Below, piece after piece: positions 6,981 through 24,782 of a stretch of DNA of 32,995 nucleotides. Source of the DNA: an uncultured Mycoplasmatota bacterium (GTDB lineage: Bacteria; Bacillota_I; Bacilli_A; RF39; UBA660); the NCBI GenBank assembly GCA_949288035.1, contig CASEIJ010000023.1:1-32995 (forward strand), given 5' to 3'. How positions within the stretch are numbered: the first letter of the stretch is position 1; each line of letters opens with the position of its first letter. A program made the position numbers and the translations under genes. The notes below the pieces were generated by a model, which saw only the letters and a list, made by a program, of their open reading frames with translations, did no database searches and was not told the DNA's origin.

Positions 6981-8261
6981 ATGAAACGATTCAAAAGTTC
7001 AAAGCTTTGCAAATGGATGTTATTGACACTTATTTTATTAATTATGCCAGTGTTTGCAAATGCCAAAGAAGCACCTGCGACATTACAAGTAAGTACAAAT
7101 GCGCCATGGACAACACCATACCTAGAACCAGGGTTATATTATGCTCAAAACTATTTAAATGATGGTAGAGTAGCATACTGTTTAGAGCTAGGTAAAGATA
7201 ATCCAACTGGTTTAACAGTTGCGAAGATCAAAAAGTTGGATAAAGGTTATCAATATTTAATTGAAAATGGATATCCAAATAAAAGTATTACTGGTGATGC
7301 TGATAAAGATACTTATATTACACAGGTAGCTATTTATTGGTATGGAGATCGTATTGCTGGAGTACCAGATGGTAAAGATGGAATGATTCCAGCATATTAT
7401 AAACAAAATCCAACCGATCCACAAAATGTAAAACCAAAAATTGAAGCATTATTAAATGGTGCTTTATCGGCACGTAATACAAGTGATGCAAAAGCAAGTA
7501 TTAGTGCATCAGCAACACAAAAAATGAATTTTTCAGAAGATAAAAAATACTTTGTTTCATCTTTAGTTACAGTAAATGGAAGTTCTAATATGAAATCATA
7601 TACTGTAAATATTACTTCTGGAGCGCAAAAAGCAATTATTTATGATGAAAGTGGAAAACCACGTTCTACATTTAATCCAGGAGAGAAATTCTATATTCGT
7701 GTTCCTGTTGAGGAATTAGGAAATAAAGAATTAGTGACTGTAAAAATTACAGGTAAATTTGTAAATAAAGTATTATATTCTTACTCAGGTGGTTCTTCAT
7801 ATCAAACAATTGCACCACCAGAGACTTATGATGAAGAAACAACAGCTAGTACAACAGTTTCATTCTATCCAAGCTATGGAAAAATTACAATTATAAAACA
7901 AGATGCAACAACGAAAGAATCTTTAGCTGGAGCAAAATTAGTATTAAAAGATTCAGACGGTAACATCGTAGCAGAATGGACAACAACAGAAGATGCATAT
8001 ACGATTAATTACTTACCATTTGGTGAATATACATTAGAAGAGGTAAGTGCACCATCTGATTATGTTTTAAGTAAAGAAATCATCCATATTACAATTTCAG
8101 AAGATACTCCTGAACAGGAAACAATTATGTATAATCAACCATATGTAGAGGTTCCTGATACTTCTTCTAAAAGTTCAACAGTACTAACAGTAATGGGATT
8201 TGTCATTCTTACATTAGGGGCTGGAACAATTTATGCGACTAAGAAAAAACATTCTAAATAA
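6981..8261 (+). CDS. Sortase-anchored surface adhesin with thioester domain and one SpaA/Cna_B domain
   Basis: A 426-aa secreted wall protein. The signal peptide is about 1-28. The N-terminal domain (about 35-165) matches the thioester-domain pattern of Gram-positive adhesins: AYCLEL with Cys67 and TQVAIYW with Gln115, the pair that forms an internal Cys-Gln thioester able to bond covalently to host targets. A beta-rich middle region follows (about 170-295). Then comes one SpaA/Cna_B domain (about 300-388) with the isopeptide trio Lys306, Glu354 and Asn385. The C-terminus is a sorting signal: VPDTSS (391-396) instead of LPxTG, a hydrophobic helix and the tail KKKHSK. A sortase gene overlaps its 3' end. 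The likely role is attachment to host cells or matrix. The host ligand is unknown, and thioester formation is inferred from motifs only. Confidence 0.88.
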   Translation: MKRFKSSKLCKWMLLTLILLIMPVFANAKEAPATLQVSTNAPWTTPYLEPGLYYAQNYLNDGRVAYCLELGKDNPTGLTVAKIKKLDKGYQYLIENGYPNKSITGDADKDTYITQVAIYWYGDRIAGVPDGKDGMIPAYYKQNPTDPQNVKPKIEALLNGALSARNTSDAKASISASATQKMNFSEDKKYFVSSLVTVNGSSNMKSYTVNITSGAQKAIIYDESGKPRSTFNPGEKFYIRVPVEELGNKELVTVKITGKFVNKVLYSYSGGSSYQTIAPPETYDEETTASTTVSFYPSYGKITIIKQDATTKESLAGAKLVLKDSDGNIVAEWTTTEDAYTINYLPFGEYTLEEVSAPSDYVLSKEIIHITISEDTPEQETIMYNQPYVEVPDTSSKSSTVLTVMGFVILTLGAGTIYATKKKHSK

Positions 8262-8907
8262 AAAAAGCCATTGCCTCGTCTTTGGCTTTTTCCTATTTTG
8301 TCTTGGTTTATACCTTTTCTCATATTCTTATATTACAAATAAACGTCAAGAAATCTTTGATGGTATGAATTTTAAATTATATGAACAAAATGAAAAAGGT
8401 ATTACAAGTGAAGAAATTGATGTCCCAGAAATTACTGTAGCGAATGATACAGAAACAGCTACAGAAGTAGATGATGATGGGGTAGTTGTTCCAAAATATC
8501 AAGATAATGCGAATTATATTGGTACAATTACCATTCCCAAAATCAATTTAAAAGCAGGTTTTGTATCTATGAATTCAAAGGAAAACGATGTTGATAAGCA
8601 CGTAGCAATTATGCCTACAAGTACTTATCCAGATGTCGCTTTCGGGAACTTTATTTTAGCAGCACATTCAGGACGTGGAAAAATCGCATATTTTAATGAT
8701 TTATATAAATTAAATGTTGGAGATACTGTCACAATAGAGTATCAAGGACAAAATTATACTTATCAAATTGTAAACATTTATGAAGAGAAAAAAACAGGAA
8801 AAGTAGCAATTCATCGTAATTTCAATAAGACAACATTAACATTAATTACATGTACAAATCATAATAGTAAGACACAAACAATATATATCGCTGAACTCAT
8901 AAACTAA
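8233..8907 (+). CDS. Sortase family transpeptidase with Gln at the catalytic Arg position
   Basis: A membrane-bound sortase, 224 aa, expected to cleave the sorting signal of a surface protein and join it to the wall or to another subunit. One N-terminal transmembrane helix (about 14-33) is followed by a linker and the sortase barrel. His145 (AAHSG) and Cys207 (LITCT) are in place. At the position of the third catalytic residue, where SrtA has KRKIFVA, this protein reads TQTIYIA, so Gln215 stands for Arg. The start at 8233 overlaps the adhesin gene by 29 nt in another frame. No later start keeps the membrane helix, and the second sortase has a matching helix plus KLYEQN motif, so the long form is right. 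Its own ribosome site is weak. Activity is uncertain. Confidence 0.85.
   Translation: MRLRKNILNKKSHCLVFGFFLFCLGLYLFSYSYITNKRQEIFDGMNFKLYEQNEKGITSEEIDVPEITVANDTETATEVDDDGVVVPKYQDNANYIGTITIPKINLKAGFVSMNSKENDVDKHVAIMPTSTYPDVAFGNFILAAHSGRGKIAYFNDLYKLNVGDTVTIEYQGQNYTYQIVNIYEEKKTGKVAIHRNFNKTTLTLITCTNHNSKTQTIYIAELIN
8262..8291 (+). terminator. Terminator-like hairpin inside the sortase reading frame
   Basis: AAAAAGCCA (8262-8270) and TGGCTTTTT (8283-8291) form a 9-bp stem with a 12-nt loop, directly after the adhesin stop codon. By position it is the adhesin terminator, yet it lies within codons 10-20 of the overlapping sortase gene. It could make the adhesin transcript much more abundant than the sortase transcript. 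Confidence 0.6.
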
Positions 8908-8926
8908 TAAAAAGGGGGTGGGAGTT

Positions 8927-9898
8927 ATGGTTCAAATGTCGATATTAGATAAATTGGGAATCTTTATACAGACTTTCTTTACATCAAAACTCCCATTACT
9001 TTTTATCTTAATTGCCTTTATTTTCTATTATTGTAAGAAAGTAAGAAAGACAATTGCGAAAAAAGAAGCATATATTCTCTATGGAATATTTAGTTTCATT
9101 GTATTAATGATCTATCATCAAGAAATATTATCTGCATTTGATTATATCATGACAAATCTTTTAACAGGTTATTATTTCCCTGATCTAGCACTTTATTTCT
9201 TGATTGTAATGATAAGTCATATTGCTTTCTTGTCTATCTTCTTTTGCTCTAGATGGACCAAGAAAATTAGAAATTTATGGATTGGACAATTTGTACTGAT
9301 TGAAACGGATTTCCTATTGTTCTTATATTTAGTTTCTAAAAATAAATTAAATGTATCAGATGCTTTATCACTGTACCAAAATGAAAGTGTCTTTGCTTTA
9401 TTAGAATTAGTAACTTTTATTGCATTTATTACGTTTATTCTATTAATTCTTTGTCTTATCTTAGATAGAGAAAAGATTTTCCACAGGAAAACAGAACAAG
9501 AGACAATCGTTGAACCAACAGTGATTGAAGTGCAAAAACCAGTTATACAAACAGAAGTTGTTTATCGTGATAAAGATACCAGTGTTTTAAAAGAAGGATT
9601 AAAGAATTTTCAAACAGAATTAAATGAAACTGATATCATTAGTAGTCATGAACTTCGTATGTTAAAAATTAAACAGAAAAAAGATTTATTAAAAATCTAT
9701 AAAAAAATGATGGAGTTGCAAATTCATTTAAATGATGAAGATTTTGATATTCAAGATGACTTTGATGATATCGAAGCATTGTTAGATGATACCGAAACAA
9801 ATACAGAACAAAATTTTAGACAGTATATTGATCAAAAAGAAAATATCCATAAAAATCAAATGAAGAAAGTAAATCAATTATTAGAAAATAATCTCTAG
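8927..9898 (+). CDS. Unknown five-helix membrane protein with charged C-terminal domain
   Basis: A 323-aa protein not matched to a family. Five hydrophobic segments (about residues 16-34, 46-64, 86-108, 120-140 and 155-180) are followed by a hydrophilic region of about 140 residues. That region is rich in Glu, Asp, Lys and Gln and looks helical or coiled coil, with an acidic patch (DDFDDIEALLDD) before the end. I chose the ATG at 8927, with AGGGGG eight bases upstream. The gene lies between the first sortase and the second adhesin, in the same direction and 19 nt after the sortase, so it belongs to the surface locus. It may be a membrane partner or assembly scaffold for sortase substrates, but nothing in the sequence proves this. 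Confidence 0.75.
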   Translation: MVQMSILDKLGIFIQTFFTSKLPLLFILIAFIFYYCKKVRKTIAKKEAYILYGIFSFIVLMIYHQEILSAFDYIMTNLLTGYYFPDLALYFLIVMISHIAFLSIFFCSRWTKKIRNLWIGQFVLIETDFLLFLYLVSKNKLNVSDALSLYQNESVFALLELVTFIAFITFILLILCLILDREKIFHRKTEQETIVEPTVIEVQKPVIQTEVVYRDKDTSVLKEGLKNFQTELNETDIISSHELRMLKIKQKKDLLKIYKKMMELQIHLNDEDFDIQDDFDDIEALLDDTETNTEQNFRQYIDQKENIHKNQMKKVNQLLENNL

Positions 9899-9927
9899 AA
9901 AAAAATTATCTAAAGATTATTTTTTTT
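9885..9927 (+). terminator. Terminator after the five-helix membrane protein gene
   Basis: AAAATAATCT (9885-9894) pairs with AGATTATTTT (9914-9923), with an inner TAGA/TCTA pairing, and is followed by TTTT. It overlaps the 3' end of the gene and splits the surface locus into two transcription units. Confidence 0.7.
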
Positions 9928-9977
9928 GCAGGAATTTGTCCCCCTTATATCGTAAGTAATTGATAGGAGGGATAAAT

Positions 9978-12290
9978 ATGAAGAAAAAATTATTGACATT
10001 GAGTGTACTTTTGTTTTTCATGATGATATCAGTTTGTCATGCAGGAACAAATGATACCAATATTCGTATTGCGTATATGGAAAATACTTATACGAATTTA
10101 AACATTTTAGGAAAGGAGTTTTCTAATAAGCAAGGTTATGTGTTTGCTAACAATAAAATTGCTTATTGTGTAGAACCAGGAATTTATATCTTATCTAATC
10201 TTTATGATTCTACACCTTATTTTGATATTGCTCATATTACGAATGATCAAAAAGAAAAAATGGAATTATATGCTTATTATGGATATCAGTATCCAAACCA
10301 TCAGAGTAGAAATTATTATCTAGCAACCCAACAGTTAATCTGGGAAACATTAGGTATGACGAATATTTTATTTACAACAGGATTAAATCGTACTGGTCAA
10401 GTCATATTGGTTTCAAATGAAAAAAATGAAATATTAAATTTAATAAAGAAACACCAAAATAAACCATCATTTGATGGTAAAACATTTTCTTTCCAATCAG
10501 GAGAAGAAAAAACGATGACTGATACCAATCAAGTGCTAGCAGAATATCAGTTAAAAAAAGAAAATCCAGAAGTGCAAAAAGAGGGGAATCAACTTACCAT
10601 TAGAGCATATCAAGTAGGTTCTCATACATTAGAACTTTATAAACTTATGAATACAGATACAAGTATGATCTATCGGAAAGAAAATTCACAGACACTAGCA
10701 ACTTTTGGAATTCATAGTGAAATAAATTCTTATTTAAAATGGAATACAGAAGGTTATAACATAGAATTATTAAAACAAGATGCAAAAACGAAAGGGGAAG
10801 CTCCAAAGGGTAGAAGCTTAAAAGGAGCGCAATATGAAGTAAGAAATAAACAAGGGGAGTTAGTAGATACATTAGTAACTGATGAAAATGGGTTTGCGAA
10901 ATCAAAAGAATTACCAAAAGATGTATATCATGTTAAAGAAATAACACCGTCTTATGGCTATGTTTTAGATGATAAAACATATGTTGTAAAAATATATGAA
11001 CATGGGAAAATATATCCAATGACAGTTTATGAAACACCTGAAGAAAAAACATTGGTCTTAAAAAAGTATTTAGAAGATATTGATCAGGAAAAAAATATTC
11101 CAGAACCAGCTATTACTTTTCAAATATTAAATATCAATACCAATGAAATGATACTAGTTGCAACAAATGATTTAGGAATTGCACAAGTATCACTTCCTTT
11201 TGGCACCTATCGCATTCATCAGTTAAATACAACAGAGCAATATCAAAAAGTAGAGGATTTTGAAGTAGTAATTGATGATCAAACAGAAGATACTATTACA
11301 TATGAATTATTCAATAAACCAGAAACAGGTATGATACACTTACATAAAGTAGGAGAAGAGAATGTACCTTTATCTGATGTAACATTTGAATTATACCGTG
11401 GAGAAAAATTAATCTCCACAAAAAAGACTGATGATGATGGTAATATTGTATGGGAACAATTACCATTTGGTAATTATTGCTTAAAAGAAATAAAAACGCA
11501 AGAAGGATATCAATTAGATCAAGAAATGCATTGCTTTTATTTAAAAGGAAAAGAAGAAAAAGAAATGAAACTAAAAAATGAACAATATAAAATTCATTTG
11601 GAATTTACAAAATTAGGAGAAAAGATGAATGGAATCAATCAAGGAAAAGTACAATATGAAACAATTCCCTTAGAAAATGTAGAGTTTACATTATATGATA
11701 GGAATGATCAAGAATTGTTGAAATTGAAAAGTGATGAGCAGGGTAAAATAATCATCCATCAACATTTAAAACCTGGTACTTATTATTTAAAAGAAACAAA
11801 AACTTTAAAAGGGTATCAATCTAATTTAGAACAATATCCATTTGTTGTAACGAATGATTATCAATTAGAACTACAATTTGATCCAGTTATTAAAAATGAA
11901 TGGAAAAAGGGAACTGTTATTTTAAATAAGAAGGATGAACAGGGGCTTCCATTAAATAATACTACATTCGCATTATATAATCGTGAGGGAACACTTCTAT
12001 ATAAAAAGACAACAGATGGAAGCGGTATCATTCGTGTTGAAAACTTACCAAGTGGAAATTATTATTGGAAAGAAGTCAAATCAAAAAAAGGGTATCTTTT
12101 AAAAACAGATGAGATTCCATTTACAATTCAAGACCATGAACAAGTCGTAACATTGCAAGTAACAAATCAATTGGAACAATATCCAAATACGGAAAACTAT
12201 ATTGAAAAAACGAAAAAATGGATTATAGGGATTACGATTGTTGGGTGTGGTATTTTAATTTTTGGAATGGTGTTAGAGAAAAGAAGATGA
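9978..12290 (+). CDS. Large sortase-anchored adhesin with thioester domain and five SpaA/Cna_B repeats
   Basis: A 770-aa secreted wall protein. The signal peptide is about 1-22. The N-terminal thioester domain shows AYCVEPG with Cys64 and ATQQLIW with Gln118. From about 260 on there are five SpaA/Cna_B-type domains: 261-352, 358-448, 452-535, 538-642 and 645-731. Domains 3, 4 and 5 keep the isopeptide trio (Lys457/Glu504/Asn534, Lys545/Glu606/Asn640, Lys651/Glu699/Asn730). Domain 1 ends in Glu352 where Asn is expected, and domain 2 has Gln415 for the Glu. The C-terminus has YPNTE (735-739) as a sorting motif, a hydrophobic helix and EKRR. AGGAGG lies eight bases before the ATG. It overlaps the second sortase gene by 4 nt. 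This is a stalk-like adhesin with a reactive tip; the ligand is unknown. Confidence 0.88.
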   Translation: MKKKLLTLSVLLFFMMISVCHAGTNDTNIRIAYMENTYTNLNILGKEFSNKQGYVFANNKIAYCVEPGIYILSNLYDSTPYFDIAHITNDQKEKMELYAYYGYQYPNHQSRNYYLATQQLIWETLGMTNILFTTGLNRTGQVILVSNEKNEILNLIKKHQNKPSFDGKTFSFQSGEEKTMTDTNQVLAEYQLKKENPEVQKEGNQLTIRAYQVGSHTLELYKLMNTDTSMIYRKENSQTLATFGIHSEINSYLKWNTEGYNIELLKQDAKTKGEAPKGRSLKGAQYEVRNKQGELVDTLVTDENGFAKSKELPKDVYHVKEITPSYGYVLDDKTYVVKIYEHGKIYPMTVYETPEEKTLVLKKYLEDIDQEKNIPEPAITFQILNINTNEMILVATNDLGIAQVSLPFGTYRIHQLNTTEQYQKVEDFEVVIDDQTEDTITYELFNKPETGMIHLHKVGEENVPLSDVTFELYRGEKLISTKKTDDDGNIVWEQLPFGNYCLKEIKTQEGYQLDQEMHCFYLKGKEEKEMKLKNEQYKIHLEFTKLGEKMNGINQGKVQYETIPLENVEFTLYDRNDQELLKLKSDEQGKIIIHQHLKPGTYYLKETKTLKGYQSNLEQYPFVVTNDYQLELQFDPVIKNEWKKGTVILNKKDEQGLPLNNTTFALYNREGTLLYKKTTDGSGIIRVENLPSGNYYWKEVKSKKGYLLKTDEIPFTIQDHEQVVTLQVTNQLEQYPNTENYIEKTKKWIIGITIVGCGILIFGMVLEKRR

Positions 12291-12802
12291 GATGGATAAA
12301 ATATGTAGGAATGATTATATTAATCAGTGTCATGCTTTATACGTTTTTATTTCATCAGAATGAAACAAAGAAAGAACAGAAAAAGAAAATAGAAATAAAA
12401 TTATATGAGCAAAATAGAATAAGAAATAGTGATATATTGGGAATGATTGAATTAGTTCGTACCAATAAAAAAAGTATGATTAAAAAAGGAAACATAGAAG
12501 AAATTATTGCTCAAAATCAAGTTGTATCGTTAAATCAAACACTAGATATTTCAAATACCATTTATTTAGCTGGACATAGTGTACCATCTGTTTTTAATGA
12601 TTTACATCAAAGCCAAATAGGAGATTCCATTATATTAACCATTAAAAATAAAAAATATCATTACTTAATTCAAAATAAGAAAAAAGTATATACAAATGAT
12701 TTTTCACCATTAGTTTCTACAGCATATCATTTGGTGTTAATTACATGTACAACAAATCCACAAATACGATTATTAGTATTTGCTGAATTAACAGAAGATT
12801 GA
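12287..12802 (+). CDS. Sortase family transpeptidase (complete catalytic triad)
   Basis: A short membrane sortase, 171 aa, with an N-terminal transmembrane helix (about 5-22) and a compact barrel. The triad is complete: His97 (LAGHSV), Cys154 (LITCTT) and Arg161 (QIRLLVF). It shares the KLYEQN segment after the helix and the C-terminal FAEL/IAEL end with the first sortase, so the two are paralogs. The ATG overlaps the adhesin TGA (ATGA), giving translational coupling, and this fits a dedicated sortase for the adhesin with the YPNTE signal. The class (A-F) cannot be fixed from sequence alone. The barrel is near the lower size limit for the family. Confidence 0.88.
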   Translation: MRWIKYVGMIILISVMLYTFLFHQNETKKEQKKKIEIKLYEQNRIRNSDILGMIELVRTNKKSMIKKGNIEEIIAQNQVVSLNQTLDISNTIYLAGHSVPSVFNDLHQSQIGDSIILTIKNKKYHYLIQNKKKVYTNDFSPLVSTAYHLVLITCTTNPQIRLLVFAELTED

Positions 12803-22697: not shown

Positions 22698-22725
22698 GAC
22701 ATCCATTATTTGGATGCCTTTTTTT
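22698..22725. terminator. Bidirectional terminator between the methyltransferase operon and the gatD-like gene
   Basis: GACATCCA-TTATT-TGGATGCC with an A run on the left and a run of seven T on the right. It serves the plus-strand operon and, overlapping the stop codon, the minus-strand gatD-like gene. Confidence 0.88.
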
Positions 22726-23452
22726 CTTCGATAAATTCTTTATAATAGTTTTCCATAAAAGTATCATGTGCTTTTTTCTCTAATTGTAGAGAAAAGTTTT
22801 TGAATTTGAAATTTGGTTCTTTAGAAAGAATTATTTTTTTAACAAAATATTTTAATAGTTCTGGATTACGAAGTAATAATGGACCAATTAAATAAGTTCC
22901 ATAAAATTCATATTCGTGAATTCCTTCTTTCTTAGAATTTGGATAAGATCCGGTTCCTTTTAAAACATGGAATAGGGGATTCTTATTTTCTCGCATGACA
23001 CTGTTTTGGTTTTGAAATCCTAGAATTGGTTCTTTTACGAAATCACATTGGAATAATGCTTCATCTGCAATACGAAAATTTTCTTGTTTTGCAAAATAAG
23101 GGAAGATATTTAAAGCTTTTATTTTTTTCTTATCAGTTGTTAAAATATATCGCCCAAATAATTCAATCGCATTTCCAGTGATTAAGAATAATTTATTTTG
23201 ATGAATTGTTGTTTCAATCTCATTTTTATATTTTAGTAAATGTTTCACAACGAGTTTTTGATTTTCTTCTGTACCTGCTCCCATATATACCATATCATAT
23301 TCATTGAAATTTAGTTCATCATCGATTGTAAGTGATAAAACTTTTACAGAAATATTTTGTTCTTCTAATTGCTTTTTCAATGCTTTGATGTTTCCGTTTT
23401 CTCCATATAGATTCATTAAATCATAATAAAGGTGAGCGATTTTAATTTCCAT
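22706..23452 (-). CDS. gatD: GatD-like glutamine amidotransferase homolog lacking the catalytic Cys and His
   Basis: Homolog of GatD, the glutaminase partner of MurT; the canonical pair amidates the D-Glu of lipid II to D-isoglutamine. The 248-aa protein keeps the family frame: YYDLMNLYGENGNI at the start, YMGAGTEENQ, GFQNQ, and KKEGIHEYEFYGTYLIGP near the end. In active GatD the nucleophile elbow is ICGGYQ and the histidine is in TYLHGP. Here these read ITGNAI (Thr92) and TYLIGP (Ile189), so both glutaminase residues are missing. I chose the ATG at 23452 with AGGAAG eight bases upstream. It overlaps the murT gene by 11 nt. It may be a structural partner for ammonia-driven amidation, or have a new role. 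Confidence 0.82.
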   Translation of the reverse strand: MEIKIAHLYYDLMNLYGENGNIKALKKQLEEQNISVKVLSLTIDDELNFNEYDMVYMGAGTEENQKLVVKHLLKYKNEIETTIHQNKLFLITGNAIELFGRYILTTDKKKIKALNIFPYFAKQENFRIADEALFQCDFVKEPILGFQNQNSVMRENKNPLFHVLKGTGSYPNSKKEGIHEYEFYGTYLIGPLLLRNPELLKYFVKKIILSKEPNFKFKNFSLQLEKKAHDTFMENYYKEFIEEKKASK

Positions 23453-24782
23453 GTTTATCACTTCCTTTCATGAGTTTTGAAAATGGTTTTACGTAATCGA
23501 AATTTAATATAGCAAATATATCTTTTTTGGTTCTATGATTCAAATAAAATACTGCTTCTTCTAAGTTCTCAAAAACAACAATCTTTTTCTCATCAATTCC
23601 TGCATATTTCATTCTTGTAGCAATATCATAACGATTAATACCAACACATACTACTTTTTCTAAAGTAGGGTGGTTTAATAATTCAAAATCAATATCATAT
23701 AGCCATGATAAATCCTCATATTGATATCTTCTACTAATCTCTTTCCAACCAATCACAATTGTTTTCTCATCTTTAAAACGAGTTGTATAAGCAATTGATT
23801 GATTAAATGTCGTACTATTTTCATTTTTATTATTTAAAACATGGACATGACGTTTTCCAACCGTAAAGAAATTTTCTTTGGAAGCATGTCTCGATATTTC
23901 CGTTAATTGTTCAGCGATTTGTTTTTCTTTTTTTCCTAAACATGCAAGTAATGTATAACATGCTAACATATTATAAGCATTATAAAGTAGGGTGGGTTTT
24001 AAATACATCTCATATTTTTTATTGATTGTCATTTTTGATTTTTCTAGGTTTAAACTTGTTGCTTCATATTGTGGAGTTGGTCTTTGAAATTGGTTACAAC
24101 TACAATAATAATCTCCTAATGCTTCAAATTGATAGTAGTGGTATTGTAATTTTTTATGGCAAATAGGACAATGAGAAATATTTAAATTCTCATATTTTGA
24201 GGTTGTACTAGAATATCTATTTTTACCGATTCCATAATAAGTAATTTTACAACCATGATTTTCAAACTTTTGTAGATAGGGATCATCCGCATTTAATATT
24301 AAGTGCATATTTTCATCTAGAGCTTTTTCTATTTCTGTAAATACTTTATCAAAGTGACCTTGTCTAGGTGGTTGATCTCTAGTGATGTTTGTAATTACCA
24401 CGTATTGAGGATGAATCTTTGGAAAGACAAACTTCGTATATCTTTCATCTACTTCACATACTAAATAATCTGCTTTTATTTTTCCTCCAATGGTTGCTTC
24501 CTGTAATAACATGGTTAAAATTCCTGCTTCTAGATTAGAGCCTGATTCATTATGCGCTACGGTATGACCATCTTGTCTTAAAATAGTAGCAATTACTTTT
24601 GTAATACTACCTTTTCCACTAGAACCAGTAACAGCAATGATATGATTTGGAAGTTCTAGTTTTTTTAACATATCTGGTTCAAATTTTAAAACGATTTGTC
24701 CAGGAAGCGTGCTACCTCGACCTAATCGCTTGCCGATCCAAGCAATTATTTTTCCTAAAATAATGAGAATACTACGTTTCAT
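23442..24782 (-). CDS. murT: MurT-like Mur ligase family protein
   Basis: Homolog of MurT, the ATP-using half of lipid II isoglutaminyl synthase. The 446-aa protein has a short N-terminal helix, the Mur ligase central domain (P-loop TGSSGKGSITK at 52-62, then HNESGSNLEAGI), a zinc-ribbon insertion with CPIC (205-208) and CSC (227-229), and a C-terminal DUF1727 domain with SWLYDIDFE. Two oddities stand out: the P-loop has GKGS, as in folylpolyglutamate synthases, rather than GKTT, and the second half of the ribbon is CxC instead of CxxC. The start has GGGGGAG. It is followed by an overlapping gatD-like gene whose glutaminase site is lost, so the complex may not hydrolyse glutamine. Confidence 0.88.
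   Translation of the reverse strand: MKRSILIILGKIIAWIGKRLGRGSTLPGQIVLKFEPDMLKKLELPNHIIAVTGSSGKGSITKVIATILRQDGHTVAHNESGSNLEAGILTMLLQEATIGGKIKADYLVCEVDERYTKFVFPKIHPQYVVITNITRDQPPRQGHFDKVFTEIEKALDENMHLILNADDPYLQKFENHGCKITYYGIGKNRYSSTTSKYENLNISHCPICHKKLQYHYYQFEALGDYYCSCNQFQRPTPQYEATSLNLEKSKMTINKKYEMYLKPTLLYNAYNMLACYTLLACLGKKEKQIAEQLTEISRHASKENFFTVGKRHVHVLNNKNENSTTFNQSIAYTTRFKDEKTIVIGWKEISRRYQYEDLSWLYDIDFELLNHPTLEKVVCVGINRYDIATRMKYAGIDEKKIVVFENLEEAVFYLNHRTKKDIFAILNFDYVKPFSKLMKGSDKHGN

Follow-up and report, generated by a model that had tools for sequence, protein, structure and literature searches.

The window analysed here, a 32,995-nucleotide stretch of DNA from an uncultured Mycoplasmatota bacterium, encodes a GatD-like protein and a MurT-like partner belonging to a subfamily in which the glutaminase active site of GatD has been lost. 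The inactive version is not one decayed gene; it is ancient and strongly conserved, and it occurs in many gut Bacilli and Clostridia. Across this clade the two genes are paired almost strictly, and the MurT residues that handle ATP and the carboxylate are retained. The enzyme pair probably attaches free ammonia, or else another amine, to a cell wall precursor. MurT/GatD homologs are assumed to be glutamine-dependent amidotransferases, and no description of such a subfamily was found in the open-access literature searched (subscription papers lay outside the search).

The sequence-only reading had placed a GatD homolog at positions 22706 to 23452 and left the strand unstated; the coordinates hold, and the gene lies on the minus strand (Table 1). 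The ATG start at 23452 has a good ribosome-binding site (AAAGGAAG) upstream, and the stop is at 22706. A phmmer search aligns S. aureus GatD with the GatD-like protein over most of its length (E 9e-30), and the Pfam GATase_3 model matches at 49 bits (cut-off 27). The AlphaFold2 model, which like that of the MurT-like protein is of a single chain, has a mean pLDDT of 97 and finds its best PDB match in S. aureus GatD (6gs2_A, TM 0.88), confirming homology and fold alike. The score against the NCBIfam GatD equivalog is 126 bits, compared with a cut-off of 400, a threshold that does not discriminate because canonical GatDs of that class likewise reach no more than 183–260 bits. The operon linkage proposed from the sequence was borne out, as a murT-like gene overlaps the start of the gatD-like gene. 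Its product matches MurT (E 2e-52) as well as the Mur_ligase_M and MurT_C models (the latter at 76 bits, cut-off 25), has the domain layout of MurT with a Mur ligase middle domain and a MurT_C domain plus Cys-rich insertion, and is modelled at a pLDDT of 90 with MurT as the nearest solved structures.

Table 1. Coordinates of the gatD-like and murT-like genes and of the residues and motifs discussed in the text.
Feature	Position in window	Strand	Remark
gatD-like gene	22706..23461 if GTG counted	minus	GTG at 23461 gives 251 aa; ATG at 23452 gives 248 aa
Thr92-Gly93-Asn94, former nucleophile elbow	23171..23179	minus	Gly93 = SaGatD Cys94; Asn94 = oxyanion Gly95
Ile189	22886..22888	minus	At catalytic His189 position (alignment)
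Gly58-Ala59-Gly60, oxyanion strand	23273..23281	minus	Ala59 at SaGatD Gly60
Arg127	23072..23074	minus	= SaGatD Arg128, retained; R in 77/84
murT-like gene, 446 aa	23442..24782	minus	Upstream of gatD, overlaps gatD start
P-loop GSSGKGS (canonical GTNGKTT)	24606..24626	minus	ATP-binding; Lys invariant
Interface/channel loop RDQPPRQGH (canonical RDQLDRxGE)	24354..24380	minus	New His at Glu141 position
Zinc-ribbon-like Cys-rich insertion CPIC...CSC	24096..24170	minus	Retained
KNEN (canonical KNPxG)	23817..23828	minus	New acidic residue; C-terminal domain loop facing ATP
SRRY (canonical DNxADG stretch)	23724..23735	minus	Just before triad-completing residue
Asp357	23712..23714	minus	= SaMurT Asp349, third triad member; D 63, E 12 of 75

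Alignment with S. aureus GatD shows that the catalytic Cys and His are both absent. The elbow region is aligned without gaps by both phmmer and MAFFT, and since its distance to each flanking motif equals that of canonical GatD, it is Gly93, and not Thr92, that occupies the position of SaGatD Cys94; Thr92 corresponds to SaGatD Ile93. The predicted fold also identifies Gly93 as the elbow, as a strand of the model ends at residue 92 and a helix begins at 93. The earlier assignment of Thr92 to the nucleophile position is therefore set aside, that of Ile189 to the position of the catalytic His is upheld, and the proposed loss of both residues proves right in substance with one of them misplaced. 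Thr92 was also considered as a replacement nucleophile and rejected on the grounds that spacing and model make Gly93 the elbow and that the base is missing as well. Among non-redundant subfamily relatives the elbow reads T in 81, G in 84 and N in 77 of 84 sequences, compared with a Cys in all 27 canonical GatDs; a His at position 189 is found in 27/27 canonical proteins and in 0/144 members of the subfamily. The oxyanion hole has changed too. The Gly60 position, invariant in canonical GatD, is occupied by Ser, Met, Ala or Cys in the subfamily, the window protein has Ala59 and Asn94 for Gly60 and Gly95, and this Gly pair occurs in none of the non-redundant subfamily sequences. No other Cys and His fall at the active site, the only Cys of the protein being Cys136, which is not conserved among relatives, and a search of the bacterium's own genome for a second GATase_3 gene, and so for an intact gatD, found none. 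In two variant GatDs a Cys directly precedes or follows the elbow Gly (L059 and L050; FCGN and FTGC), but both lack the His. The sequences clearly rule out a cysteine glutaminase of the known type for the subfamily GatD.

The former active site is nevertheless among the most conserved parts of the subfamily GatD, with elbow residues 93, 94 and 95 ranking 13, 3 and 20 of 228 columns. The channel-plug Tyr17 is kept, as is the equivalent of Arg128, the residue that captures glutamine in S. aureus GatD (PMC5871853).

The sequences indicate that MurT has been remodelled together with GatD, which the sequence-only reading had not foreseen, with the ATP machinery kept and new motifs placed at the GatD face and in the C-terminal domain. 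Lys59, Asn80, Asn85, Glu108, Asp110 and Glu111 are invariant, gaps apart, in 75 non-redundant MurT sequences, and the gate acids are retained (Asp349 as Asp or Glu, and Asp355). Pneumococcal MurT requires Lys59, Asn85 and Asp112/Glu113 for activity (PMC6085368). The canonical motifs RDQxDRxGE, KNPxG and DNxADG are replaced by RDQxxRxGH, KxEN and SR[RK]Y. His is found at the Glu141 position in 55/75 subfamily proteins (canonical Glu, 28/28), the K-x-[ED] motif (KxEN) in 73/75 and the basic-x-Tyr motif (SR[RK]Y) in 62/75, the last two being present in 0/28 canonical sequences. The RDQ loop lies at the GatD interface of the pneumococcal structure and may form an ammonia channel, and canonical MurT is without the loop His that is used by other Mur ligases (PMC6085368). 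The new His sits six residues from that Mur-ligase position, so the parallel is only suggestive.

Judging from the 60 relatives that were scanned, the same substitutions are spread through the window's family. Public genomes searched with the MurT alignment yielded 80 named loci, at all but one of which GatD adjoins MurT, the exception being cut by a contig end. The search of related genomes proposed in the sequence-only reading returned 144 sequences with the Gly and no His; another 38 have Cys and His, and sorting by these two positions left 0 intermediates. In a tree of 102 concatenated GatD/MurT pairs, from which the trait columns had been removed, one branch separates the inactive from the canonical side with an SH-aLRT of 100% (a quick search supported by SH-aLRT only), and the label changes once; because the tree is unrooted, the ancestral state cannot be read from it. 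The inactive kind is present in 61 of the 64 genera examined in the window's family (53 with the ordinary form, 5 with a type III form and 3 with both), and the canonical kind in 3. The inactive kind was also found outside this family, in several MAGs of Clostridia and in Massiliimalia massiliensis Marseille-P2963T, a carrier recorded as a named isolate strain. The type III clade (L024, L206, L241-L246, L254, L255) is a third, more divergent MurT/GatD that also lacks the Cys and His; its MurT has an RDS or RDT loop and a KGQN-like motif, and some genomes carry it as well as the ordinary variant. A single MurT was found in 34/36 carrier genomes; the extra copies retrieved from the remaining two belong to type III, and none of them is canonical. 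These counts derive mostly from metagenome assemblies and do not represent independent events.

The gatD gene is under purifying selection, with dN/dS between congeners of 0.07–0.11 (murT, 0.07–0.18), as obtained from simple Nei-Gojobori counts in which dS approaches or exceeds 1 where the pairs are more distant; these values rule out a pseudogene. The match tables for the two proteins, compared by hand across 387 family genomes, place both in 155 of the 163 genomes that hold either. A GatD-like match stands alone in 7 genomes (1 lies at a contig end; the other 6 are weak and may represent other proteins), and a MurT match, a partial one, stands alone in 1. Three genomes of genus g61 keep both genes on different contigs. 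No GatD-like match was found in 225/387 genomes, nor was the pair found in G004, a 94%-complete genome of the same genus, where the function is dispensable or the pair was missed. The suggestion that the gene is under selection for a non-glutaminase role is thus strongly supported by the clade-wide loss, the purifying selection, the near-perfect pairing with MurT and the re-conserved former site. A search for a conserved neighbour that would name the substrate found none across 52 variant loci, only local cell wall neighbours; in G008 the pair adjoins, and is divergent from, murE and a membrane-anchored murF-like gene.

The reading placed first, tentatively and at somewhat below an even chance, is that of a MurT-type ligase that does without glutamine and has a pseudo-glutaminase as its other subunit, with free ammonia as the likeliest nucleophile. 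Among the grounds for ranking it first are the ammonia use of the C94G mutant, the physical need of MurT for GatD, and the precedent of CPS1. In S. aureus GatD the C94G substitution abolishes glutamine use and leaves NH3-dependent amidation at pH 8.5 (PMC3266927), and C94S and C94A are dead for glutamine (PMC3266927, PMC6113224, PMC5871853). MurT alone is inactive with any donor, GatD being physically needed (PMC3266927). Human CPS1 has kept a glutaminase domain that is inactive (Cys to Ser), and it uses free ammonia (PMC4655335).

In the proposed ammonia-dependent mechanism, the MurT-like subunit would bind ATP and Mg2+ and activate a carboxylate by forming an acyl phosphate on it, the likeliest candidate being the D-Glu alpha-carboxylate of the wall precursor. 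The GatD-like subunit, whose nucleophile, base and oxyanion hole are all gone, is predicted to be unable to hydrolyse glutamine and would function as an obligate structural partner that holds MurT active and lines the route leading to the MurT gate. Free ammonia, which is plentiful in gut and rumen contents, would be the likeliest amine, and the product would be D-isoglutamine made without glutamine. Homology, together with the divergent linkage to murE and the murF-like gene in G008, suggests lipid II as the acceptor.

Several observations count against this mechanism. Wild-type S. aureus MurT/GatD takes NH3 only at pH 8.5 and not at 7.5 (PMC3266927). A pure scaffold does not explain the near-invariant T-G-N elbow or the kept glutamine-capture Arg, and the MurT changes (His at 141, SRRY, KxEN) go beyond the needs of a switch to ammonia. 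The apparent absence of the pair from G004 is a further difficulty. The earlier suggestion of a scaffold for MurT using free ammonia survives as the leading specific idea, helped by C94G, but not as the sole one; an amine or amino-acid ligase and a sensing role are kept in play by the further changes in MurT and the renewed conservation of the GatD pocket.

As the nucleophile, free ammonia has a serious competitor in an amino acid or another amine. MurT may have become a ligase for an amino acid or a polyamine, which it would attach to the D-Glu alpha-carboxyl or to another precursor carboxyl, a reading judged possible if rather doubtful. On this reading the incoming amino acid would have its carboxylate held by the basic SR[RK]Y motif, in the manner of the Mur-ligase arginines. 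The subfamily changes do cluster where the nucleophile arrives (E141H, the acidic C-terminal residue, and SR[RK]Y for DNxADG), and the loop regains a His of a kind that canonical MurT lacks (PMC6085368). This His, however, has no positional homology with that of the Mur ligases, the basic-x-Tyr motif is variable and absent in 13/75 sequences, the gate acids for ammonium are kept, and the type III relatives have neither SR[RK]Y nor KxEN. Wall chemistry has shown other bacteria to bear glycine, diamino acids or polyamines on the D-Glu alpha-carboxyl, and to our knowledge no gene has been assigned to the type of enzyme that makes such D-Glu-substituted peptidoglycans. The group B peptidoglycan literature was searched for the carriers and yielded nothing useful. 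That the pair represents a new kind of wall-precursor ligase, placing an amino acid or polyamine on the D-Glu alpha-carboxyl with a pseudo-glutaminase partner, is considered fairly unlikely.

Less probable is a sensor or regulator, in which the remade GatD pocket and Arg128 would bind a small molecule, for example an amino acid, and thereby switch MurT on or off, the nitrogen source being secondary; the standing of T-G-N and Arg128 among the most conserved columns favours such a role, but elbow conservation can be structural, as Gly suits the strained backbone of SaGatD Cys94 (PMC5871853), and the reading is regarded as clearly unlikely. It is very unlikely that ammonia is supplied in trans by another glutaminase, such as an intact C26-type class I GATase beside murF. 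The genome does encode two proteins of the C26-type GATase fold in which Cys and His are intact, one of them overlapping murF, but the murF-linked gene is also present in G004, where MurT/GatD was not found, and there is no sign of a MurT interface. Furthermore, C26 members are typically hydrolases of gamma-glutamyl compounds, which counts against such a supply. The alternative that the pair is a relic in a lineage that has given up amidating lipid II is scarcely credible, since the absence of the pair from over half of the sampled family is outweighed by the low gatD dN/dS, the open reading frames, the 155 genomes with both genes, the one ancient split and the re-conserved sites.

Other cell wall and surface genes were observed in the window and related genomes. 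The murF-overlapping C26-type protein of the bacterium's own genome (L165:1444-2130, contig C28) has its GICMGM Cys and WHPE His intact, and the same adjacency is seen in G002, G003, G004 and G019. At four loci (L247, L248, L251, L252) two MurE-like ligases stand in tandem or a short distance apart, with mraY, where seen, coming next; one of the two carries DNPR and the other DDPH in L247, L251 and L252, which hints at two stem-peptide substrates. MurF-like ligases of about 530 aa with a hydrophobic, probably membrane-spanning N-terminal part occur at L168:1030-2628 and L249:4979-6583, the latter standing with murE divergent from murT-gatD. Several FemAB-type transferase matches on contigs C49 and C5 of the own genome, including three tandem genes on C49, suggest a branched cross-bridge. 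No murE was found in the own genome, probably owing to an assembly gap, and the idea that MurT stands in for it was discarded because congeners have murE (two copies). Within the window, positions 6981-12802 appear to be a pilus locus, judged from the translated reading frames alone, which include pilin-like surface proteins and, next to them, sortase-like ones.

The subfamily shares with S. aureus and S. pneumoniae MurT/GatD the murT-gatD order, full-length homology and fold, the zinc-ribbon-like Cys motif, the P-loop Lys, Asn85, Glu108, Asp/Glu349 and Asp355 of MurT, and Tyr17 and Arg128 of GatD, and it probably works like them in the ATP half of the reaction. In contrast to these enzymes, it lacks the catalytic Cys and His and the oxyanion glycines, has the T-G-N elbow, and carries RDQ..RxGH, KxEN and SR[RK]Y in MurT. 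Since the defining features of a glutamine-hydrolysing GatD and a canonical MurT fail, the pair is not filed here as a lipid II isoglutaminyl synthase. The S. aureus C94G laboratory mutant likewise has a Gly at the nucleophile position, from which a similar loss of glutamine use would be expected here, whereas the mutant retains His189, the oxyanion glycines and a canonical MurT, and its use of NH3 was shown only at pH 8.5. Human CPS1 offers an analogy only, in its inactive class I glutaminase-like domain and use of free ammonia; it is a fused multidomain enzyme of another pathway, with Cys changed to Ser. Archaeal MurT-like proteins and the pseudomurein ligase pMurC are also MurT-related members of the Mur-ligase family, but the archaeal MurT-like genes have no GatD partner and the window pair keeps one.

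MurT/GatD is essential in several pathogens and is an antibiotic target. Here, a whole branch found in common uncultured gut and rumen Bacilli, and also in Clostridia, lacks the glutaminase and keeps both genes. Annotation by name would make these proteins an isoglutaminyl synthase and predict walls with D-isoglutamine and the corresponding NOD1/NOD2 signalling, predictions that may be wrong for these organisms. As Massiliimalia massiliensis is a named strain, its wall chemistry is directly measurable.
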